DNA of 52,533 nt from Candidatus Saccharimonadota bacterium (GTDB lineage Bacteria; Patescibacteriota; Saccharimonadia; Saccharimonadales; Saccharimonadaceae), in contig JAGCAJ010000002.1 of the NCBI GenBank assembly GCA_017652765.1, positions 1-52,533 of the forward strand. Direction: 5' to 3'. The notes below the pieces were generated by a model. The model saw only the letters and a program-made list of their open reading frames with translations. It was not told the DNA's origin and did not search any database. How positions within the stretch are numbered: position 1 is the stretch's first letter; every line of letters starts with the position of its first letter. The position numbers and the translations under genes were made by a program. Positions 25,103-52,533 of this stretch are shown here, piece after piece.

Positions 25103-25131
25103 TTGCATTTTTAGCCTATCTATGCTAAGAT
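25103..25131 (+). promoter_or_regulatory. Promoter of rplJ-rplL
   Basis: TTGCAT, 17-nt spacer, extended -10 TGC-TAAGAT. Confidence 0.75.
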
Positions 25132-25138
25132 ATTAGAA

Positions 25139-25230
25139 GTTACCAAAGACAGCGACGGGAGTATATATACCCCTTAATCATGTCGCCGAGGAATACGCCT
25201 TATGGCATTCTTATATCTAGAAACGGTAAC
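25139..25230 (+). ncRNA. Ribosomal protein L10 leader
   Basis: Outer stem GTTACC (25139) with GGTAAC (25225), then AAGACAGC, an inner stem, TTAATC and GTCGCCGAGGA. This order matches the conserved L10 leader in which the L10-L12 complex binds its own mRNA and represses rplJ-rplL. It starts 8 nt after the -10 box and ends 47 nt before rplJ. Confidence 0.8.
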
Positions 25231-25277
25231 GGAATTTAACAATCCGACGCCTATAAATTTAATCAAGGAACTTGAAT

Positions 25278-25799
25278 ATGGCTATCTCAAAGGATAAAAA
25301 GCAAACTTTAGTTGCTGATTTGACTGAGCTTCTATCTAGTTCTAAGATGACTGTTTTTGCCTGCTATCAGGGTCTAACCGTTGCCGAGCTCCAAGAGCTC
25401 CGCAAAAATGCCCGTGAAAACGGCGTCAAAATCAAAGTCGTCAAAAACCGTCTAGTTCGCGTCGCCCTAGGTGAAATCGCCGTCTACAAAGACACCGATA
25501 CCACCGGCCTAACTGGCCAGCTTCTCTATGCCGTCTCCGACAGCGACGAAGTTGCCCCAGCCAAGGTACTTGCCGAATTTGGTAAGTCCCACGACGCTCT
25601 CCAAATCGCTGGCGCAATCAATGATCTAGGTGTTAACCTCTCCGAAGATGAGGTCAAGAGCCTTGCTGCTCTCCCATCAAAGAACGAGCTTATCGCCCAG
25701 GTGGTTGCCCAACTTCTCTCCGGTGCTACCGATTCCATCTCCGCCCTTTCTGGCGGTCTATCTGGTATCGTCTCCGGTCTAGAAGCAAAAGCAAATTAG
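25278..25799 (+). CDS. rplJ: 50S ribosomal protein L10
   Basis: Base of the L12 stalk. 173 residues from ATG 25278 (SD aaggaa): ISKDKKQTLVADLTELLSSSKMTVFACYQGLTVAELQELRKNARENGVKIKVVKNRLVRVAL is classic L10, and the C-terminal helix (residues about 135-173) binds L7/L12 dimers. It is preceded by an L10 leader and followed by a 207-nt gap dominated by one large hairpin. Confidence 0.97.
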   Translation: MAISKDKKQTLVADLTELLSSSKMTVFACYQGLTVAELQELRKNARENGVKIKVVKNRLVRVALGEIAVYKDTDTTGLTGQLLYAVSDSDEVAPAKVLAEFGKSHDALQIAGAINDLGVNLSEDEVKSLAALPSKNELIAQVVAQLLSGATDSISALSGGLSGIVSGLEAKAN

Positions 25800-25804
25800 C
25801 ATTA

Positions 25805-25975
25805 AAAGAATTTCTAGATATGAATTTTTTGTTTGATAAAAGCGGATTTCCCCTTAGAAGGATGATGAGCAAATACCTAACGAGCACGTTTTAGTACGGC
25901 GCAGTTAGGATTTGCGAATCATTCGGATAAGGCGGAAACCAAGACAAACAAAAAATTACATATTAAAAATTCTTT
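25805..25975 (+). repeat. 171-nt near-complete hairpin between rplJ and rplL
   Basis: Outer arms (about 25805-25835 and 25945-25975) are almost perfectly complementary over 30 nt, with ttttttgtttg facing caaacaaaaaa. The inner arms (ggatttcc...gcaaatacctaac facing gttaggatttgc...ggaaacc) pair with few bulges. The loop is about 25882-25903. No ORF crosses it. Confidence 0.8.
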
Positions 25976-26006: not shown

Positions 26007-26390
26007 ATGGCTGCTGATATCAAGAAATTGGCCGAAGAATTGGTCAAACTTACCGTTCTCGAAGTGAACGAACTCAAAACTGTACTAAAAGACGAATATG
26101 GCATCGAGCCTGCTGCTGCCGCTGTTGCAGTTGCTGGTCCTGTTGCTGGTGCCGACGCTGGTGCCGCTGACGAAGGCAAATCTGAATTCGACGTCGTTCT
26201 AAAGGACGCTGGCGCCCAGAAGATTGCCGTCATTAAAGCCGTTAAAGAAGCTACTGGCCTTGGCCTTGGCGAAGCAAAAGCTATCGTTGATGGTGCTCCT
26301 GCTACCGTCAAAGAGAAAGTTGCCAAAGACGAAGCTGAAGCTCTTAAGAAGTCCCTTGAAGAAGCCGGCGCTACTGTCGAGCTCGCCTAA
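26007..26390 (+). CDS. rplL: 50S ribosomal protein L7/L12
   Basis: Mobile stalk protein present in several copies per ribosome; recruits GTPase factors. 127 residues: N-terminal dimerisation helices, an Ala/Gly-rich hinge ([23 protein letters not shown]), then the C-terminal domain [41 protein letters not shown] aaaggag is ideal. rpoB does not follow. Confidence 0.97.
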
Positions 26391-52355: not shown

Positions 52356-52460
52356 CCATAACCGTAAAGCCTCATAGACATCCAGCGCGCCAGCGCTCGG
52401 TAGGCCTTTAGAAACAGTGGTGGTTTAGGCCGGGAGCACGATACTGGCGACCAAAAATCC
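52356..52460 (-). other. Non-coding stretch with a strong 62-nt hairpin
   Basis: The gap between the toxin and the next gene (52202-52510) holds no ORF. Its right part contains a stepped stem at 52388-52449: cgccag/ctggcg, then gcgctc/gagc-type pairs, then aggcc/ggcct. It lies between two terminators. It does not match RNase P, tmRNA or SRP RNA by eye. Confidence 0.5.
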
Positions 52461-52486
52461 CCCATTTCTGGGGGATTTGGGATGCT
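52460..52486 (-). terminator. Terminator of the right-edge FISUMP gene
   Basis: Stem aatccccc / gggggatt with loop agaaat-type tip, then ttttt on the reverse strand. Confidence 0.8.
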
Positions 52487-52501
52487 AGGGTAGGATGCTA
52501 A
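52478..52501 (-). repeat. TAGCATCC direct repeats, second copy
   Basis: Reverse strand reads tagcatcctaccctagcatc, nearly the same as 6961-6980 behind the first FISUMP gene. Confidence 0.6.
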
Positions 52502-52510
52502 TGTAGGTAG

Positions 52511-52533
52511 CTAATTGGCATTTATACAGCGCA
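52511..52533 (-). CDS. C-terminal end of a second FISUMP-like protein (partial)
   Basis: The last complete reverse-strand codons read RCINAN followed by TAG. The first FISUMP gene ends VRCIAQ-TAG, and RCI near the end is typical of the family. The shared TAGCATCC repeats and terminator behind both genes support the call. Only seven codons are visible. Confidence 0.5.

Follow-up and report, generated by a model that had tools for sequence, protein, structure and literature searches.

Palindromic repeats for which no mover is known, among them ERIC, the Rickettsia palindromic elements and the hairpins of mitochondria, are a long-standing puzzle. The bacterial MITEs and palindromic intergenic repeats (e.g., ERIC and Correia; PMC10969869) are 100–250 bp long, palindromic, intergenic, dispersed and geneless; they can form part of mRNAs, where RNase III may cleave them (PMC10969869). 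The elements that Ogata et al. (2000/2002, cited in PMC10969869) described from Rickettsia belong to several families of hairpins within one reduced genome and have in-frame insertion into protein genes as a trait; the sources examined contain no description of one hairpin nested in the tip of another. In the ‘inverted-repeat-replacing’ transposition of the IS1272/IS1182 family, any stem-loop is targeted irrespective of its sequence (PMC5678879). The mitochondrial double-hairpin and repetitive hairpin-forming elements and the yeast GC clusters are small mobile hairpins with no enzyme known, and are often found in tandem or within rRNA and protein genes (PMC2800124). REP/BIME sequences, served by TnpA-REP (Y1), are palindromic extragenic repeats that insertion sequences can also target (PMC2817692).

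The window (the whole stretch of 52,533 nucleotides of Saccharibacteria DNA that was analyzed) contains in the gap between rplJ and rplL a hairpin that shares features with all of these systems. It has the size, palindromic form, intergenic location, dispersal and lack of genes of the ERIC and Correia repeats; in contrast to them, its stems are unconserved between copies, with only loops and junctions retained, its apex modules are swapped, and no parent transposon was found. Compared by description rather than by sequence, the Rickettsia elements likewise comprise several hairpin families, whereas the Saccharibacteria family is mostly intergenic. Replacement of an apex or stem-loop is common to IS1272 and this hairpin family (see contigs C16 and C18 below), but IS1272 encodes a DDE transposase (PMC5678879), and transposases of the DUF772 type are missing from the 174 genomes of the genus. 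The mitochondrial elements are organellar, and those of sponges have conserved stems and variable loops, the reverse of the situation here (PMC2800124); REP sequences differ in their length of 20–40 bp, their conserved stems and their Y1 partner (PMC2817692). By eye only, the ACCTAAC/GTTAGGA near the tip resembles the integron attC R boxes (RYYYAAC/GTTRRRY). Searches of the open-access literature found no description of this hairpin family, nor of bacterial palindromic elements nested at hairpin tips; the family appears to be previously unlisted and of a known kind (MITE/Rickettsia palindromic element). One small genome and its close relatives contain both filled and empty hairpins, and strong covariation distinguishes the recognized parts (loops, junctions) from the free parts (stems); together these make apex insertion directly testable, in a phylum with cultured members that have reportedly been manipulated genetically (PMC10633639).

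The hairpin in the rplJ–rplL gap

The gap measures 207 nt and separates an rplJ-like (L10) ORF (25272..25799, + strand; TTG start in table 11, with an ATG at 25278) from an rplL-like (L7/L12) ORF (26007..26390, +), the ribosome-binding site of which (AGAAAGGAG) is not part of the hairpin. The preliminary description reported a 171-nt hairpin that almost fills this gap, and that structure is real: positions 25805–25975 fold as one rod with −67.2 kcal/mol (221 nt folded; z −9.1), a stability equaled by 0 of 200 dinucleotide shuffles, and a window-wide survey of the 52.5 kb found no other hairpin or inverted repeat as strong. The outermost arms (25805–25835 and 25945–25975) are 31 nt each and 77% complementary without gaps.

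The hairpin is composite, that is, an outer arm pair encloses a separable core of ~106 nt. The fold and the arm complementarity delimit the left outer arm (25805..25837, +) and the right outer arm (25944..25975, +), with AT/T unpaired at the junction. The left arm is kin to the outer arm of the copies in the related genome G030 (AATTTTTTGT..) and is missing from most relatives; the right arm shares its first 16 nt with the G030 copies. The core (25838..25943, +), which is of type 1 (AAAAGCGG...ACCAAG), consists of conserved junction motifs, a variable inner stem and a conserved tip. Alignments place the tip module (AACGAGCACG-loop-CGGCGCAGTT) at 25879..25908 (+; helices 3 and 4 of the covariation test described below); it is the best-conserved portion of the hairpin family and sets the strand of the family.

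Comparison of the same gap in relatives, proposed in the preliminary description, showed that the hairpin is missing in most of them and left the proposed effect on L7/L12 dosage unsupported. In 19 of 22 sites (the window plus 21 relatives), the gap is 20–51 nt long and hairpin-free, with the gene order unchanged; outside this range are the window, G003 (129 nt) and G030 (80 nt), the latter two with small hairpins. In G021, the closest relative by L7/L12 (95%), the gap contains a tip-less version of the window core in reversed orientation plus a second, unrelated hairpin. The conservation expected of a regulatory RNA in a ribosomal operon was not found among the 22 gaps. Because most gaps are short and without a hairpin, as against 207 nt here, the window hairpin is an insertion and not a conserved control element; a stable intergenic hairpin within a ribosomal operon need not mean regulation.

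Upstream of both genes is an L10-leader-like element (25125..25222, +), which we take to be the operon's usual autoregulation site. Its match to Rfam RF00557 reaches only 34.5 bits where the gathering score is 44, so the Saccharibacteria version may extend the Rfam family.

A dispersed family with conserved loops and variable stems

The search for similar inverted repeats elsewhere in the genome, also proposed at the outset, was productive. BLAST with the gap identified a second core copy in the window's own genome (G000:C18:11025-11133; inner 108 nt, 88% identical), which has a DNA-repair-like and a mutM-like gene as its neighbors and is enclosed by different outer arms; further nested hairpins are described below. 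A covariance model (R1) built from four cores out of three genomes scores 125 bits at the window locus and has 43 matches in 15 of 174 genomes of the same genus, with a maximum of six per genome; a few of these are the other strand of the same copy. The matches are confined to this genus, with none in the 60 other genera of the family (295 genomes sampled from 61 genera). Spread has been recent in G095, where copies of ~208 nt that are 94% identical occur at unrelated loci. In a survey of ~0.7 Mb (the window plus sampled contigs), element-bearing genomes contained long hairpins, whereas 160 kb of two non-carriers contained none. Public records that match the family are Candidatus Saccharibacteria from the ileum of sheep and water-deer.

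Searches with the tip pattern across the phylum returned matches at chance level. Phages and plasmids contained no match to the element and IMG/VR no match to the exact pattern, and a looser tip pattern gave chance matches only, without hairpins; a phage or plasmid origin was rejected on these results; a known Rfam RNA family was also rejected, as no covariance model matched the element.

Nearly all copies are a hairpin upon a hairpin, in which the tip sits on a variable inner stem and a junction connects this to an outer stem that is variable as well; throughout the genus, they have the loop and junction motifs in common and differ in their stems. The tip loop is asymmetric (CGAGYAC ... GGCGCAG), and the junction is of type 1 (AAAAGMGG / CGAC or ACCAAG) or type 2 (CGARCC / GGACGYGAG). 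The deviant copies are G021a (tip-less), those of G130 and G030c (plain tip) and G093a (decayed).

Pairing is conserved while the sequence of the stems changes freely. Among 33 aligned copies, 95.8% of pair cells hold standard pairs and 35 of 36 pairs show two-sided changes; the covariation score is 0.738, compared with 0.164 for shuffled sequences and 0.06–0.12 with slid partners. Fitting the alignment to the model biases these figures in favor of the structure; the margin is large all the same, and the fold that was to be checked in this way is kept almost perfectly. The outer arms were left out of R1 and their pairing was scored separately: the median score is 25 with the arm's own partner and 6 when partners are swapped between copies, and the arms pair flush with the core junction in 12 of 15 copies versus 1 of 210 swapped pairs. 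Across copies, the left arms are barely more alike than shuffled sequences (median likeness 0.40 vs 0.37).

G.T and A.C mismatches are at parity over the whole alignments (82 to 89). Within helices on the tip strand, G.T exceeds A.C by 41 to 21 (flank 2, p 0.015); changing the stringency gives 50 to 36 and 16 to 11. Because the excess varies with stringency and disappears over the whole alignments, strand-specific folding of the element is only suggested.

Hairpins in the tips of other hairpins

On contig C16, the window's own genome also has the second copy's outer hairpin by itself, without a core (GGCCTAAACACCACTATTTTCAAGGCTA-CCGCGCTCGG-TAGGCCTTTAGAAACAGTGGTGGTTTAGGCC), and a query of the arms only matches it right across the junction. 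With the same arms, C18 has a core of ~107 nt where C16 has a 10-nt tip; the pair does not represent a clean insertion, as the 10-nt tip is replaced. The same left arm recurs at C18:19.5 kb and C3:58 kb, where it leads into a different hairpin (GCATATATTGCAC.../...AGAAAAAAGTCAATATATGC), bounded on both sides by CTA relative to C16. The loop of this hairpin is CAAGACTAAATAGGG in C3 and CAAGACT-[TGAATC...GATTCAAAT]-CTAAATAGGG in C18, that is, the C18 loop has received a further hairpin with a 2-bp (CT) duplication relative to C3. Target-site duplications, of 2–3 bp, are seen in only two pairs from this genome and are ambiguous at most junctions because the junctions are palindromic.

The relatives contain comparable pairs. 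G130d and G130 C35 have the same outer arms and different inner hairpins; G095a and G095d have the same inner sequence and different outer arms; and G030a/b differ from G030c in the core but agree with it in the right outer arm, the left side of G030a/b being cut by contig ends. One outer hairpin thus occurs with differing apex contents. Module boundaries this abrupt and symmetric are not what drift under selection for pairing yields on its own.

Near its 3′ end, the window itself contains the outer hairpin that bears the second core copy, truncated to its right half (52395..52431, +; 52404–52431 match at 96%). Positions 52395–52533 overlap C16:1-140 in inverted orientation at this half hairpin, so the assembly broke at the repeat; all of the genome assemblies are fragmented, and hairpins are places where such assemblies can break or join.

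Explanations, candidate enzymes and genomic settings

We consider it probable, at roughly 0.7, that the hairpin is one insertion of a modular, non-autonomous palindromic mobile element of the MITE or Rickettsia-palindromic-element kind, with modules that insert into or replace hairpin apices. The element has been mobile over evolutionary time: its paralogs are dispersed, it is absent from most relatives, and hairpins occur in filled and empty pairs, as anticipated by the suggestion of a fold-back mobile element. The many dispersed copies have no coding capacity and are absent at orthologous empty sites (the 20–51-nt gaps), as is typical of MITEs. The core would be recognized by its short end sequences (AAAAGCGG / ACCAAG or CGAC) and its tip (CGAGYAC...GGCGCAG); it is seated flush at the end of an outer helix, and the sequence of that helix varies between copies. 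A module may enter, or replace, the apex of another hairpin while its single strand is folded. Entry at the apex is suggested by the position of the module's two ends, side by side at the helix end, which makes joining into the opened tip of another hairpin geometrically simple; handling as a folded single strand is suggested by the conservation of loops and junctions and by mismatches that lean to G.T on the tip strand. The joining could be done by an enzyme supplied in trans or by a host repair activity, and at rplJ–rplL the element would be a tolerated passenger in an untranslated gap. A stronger claim, that these hairpins are a distinct mobile class that spreads as folded single strands (DNA or RNA) inserted specifically at hairpin apices, we regard as tentative and hold with much less confidence; the ends would stack on the opened tip of another hairpin and then be joined, so hairpins would accumulate inside one another with no particular stem sequence needed.

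The outer arms could instead have grown outward in place, if template switching at replication copied the flanks as an inverted repeat around a core, in which case the outer arms would be of local origin and no part of a mobile unit. Such switching is known to correct imperfect palindromes, and this explanation accommodates both the variation of the arms between copies and their abrupt symmetric change around one core (G095a vs G095d); it may apply to some outer arms. As a general account it is unlikely, since the outer arms move together with the core in the recent G095 copies, the window arm is like that of G030 at other loci, the gap in relatives is too short for a 31-nt arm, and the C3/C18 hairpin was added in a loop with a 2-bp duplication. 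We give slightly less weight still to the idea that each locus carries a chromosomal non-coding RNA gene and that these genes form a family, with stems that drift under selection for pairing: the extreme covariation, the conserved asymmetric tip and the weak G.T excess on one strand would be expected, but the family is patchy even in close species (15/174), shows no orientation preference, includes truncated halves and apex swaps, and has no Rfam match.

Least probable, and very doubtful in our estimation, is a cis-acting mRNA structure (an RNase III site or stabilizer) selected to raise L7/L12 over L10, which the preliminary description had offered as one of two readings of the fold. The very stable hairpin is sense-oriented between the two genes, and the modest G.T excess on the tip strand fits a strand-specific fold; this reading is contradicted by the 19 short, hairpin-free gaps, by the reversed, tip-less element of G021 and by the paralogs, which lie beside unrelated genes with no orientation bias (12 sense, 9 antisense). 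Nothing in the data speaks for a conserved role in L7/L12 dosage; RNase III may cleave the rplJ–rplL mRNA incidentally.

For the mobile element that we prefer, the candidate enzymes that we considered were set aside. Y1 transposases are absent (0/15 carrier genomes), so mobility of the IS200/IS605 or REP type (REPtron) was rejected; DUF772 (IS1182/IS5-type) transposases are encoded by 0 of the 174 genomes of the genus, so stem-loop replacement of the IS1182 type in trans was rejected as well. No autonomous element was seen near the copies, the transposase searches covering the Y1 and DUF772 families. Reverse transcriptases are common (98/174 genomes, including 10/15 carriers) and unassociated with the element, and reverse transcription was rejected as the route on this basis. 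The window's genome encodes one of ~390 aa (C3:11353-11970); the reverse transcriptase genes of the genus are perhaps diversity-generating retroelements.

Copies are mostly intergenic or at the 3′ ends of genes. By mechanical ORF calls, ~35 sites comprise 14 between convergent genes, 12 between co-directional genes with the tip strand in sense, 9 with it in antisense and 0 between divergent genes; such a distribution is in keeping with insertions tolerated at the ends of genes and not with a promoter or leader role. In five carriers, a dif-like site (TTTAATGTCGCACAATGTATATTTTACGACATTAAA) is found within ~150 nt of an element copy, with different arms each time (loci L042 in G019, L052 in G093, L059 in G032, L051 in G095 and L062 in G120).

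Other hairpins occur in the same genomes. The der gene (EngA GTPase) of G095 (C41, L121:12650-12856) contains a 207-nt in-frame hairpin, which may or may not belong to this family, and which adds ~30–40 residues after KTDLL that are missing in relatives; in-frame insertion is a Rickettsia-element trait. A second hairpin family on G095 C18 (L123:6620-6827 and L123:9960-10158) has the motif TTACAAC..TAGCCTATC / ATAGGTA..GTTGTAAC and variable arms. A third module, with the junction ATGTATATTCCWGAC / GCRTATGACAT, is common to two species (G130 C35 and G030 C17; L320; L321, L322) and in one case encloses a near-perfect 18-bp inner stem. On contigs of G030 and G130 (L321–L332, L045, L066, L074), hairpins and half-hairpins recur at the 3′ ends of genes that belong to one repeated family, so part of the spread may be due to ordinary recombination; the encoded proteins have (S)VRC-like C-terminal residues, and the arrangement recalls gene cassettes with 3′ palindromes.
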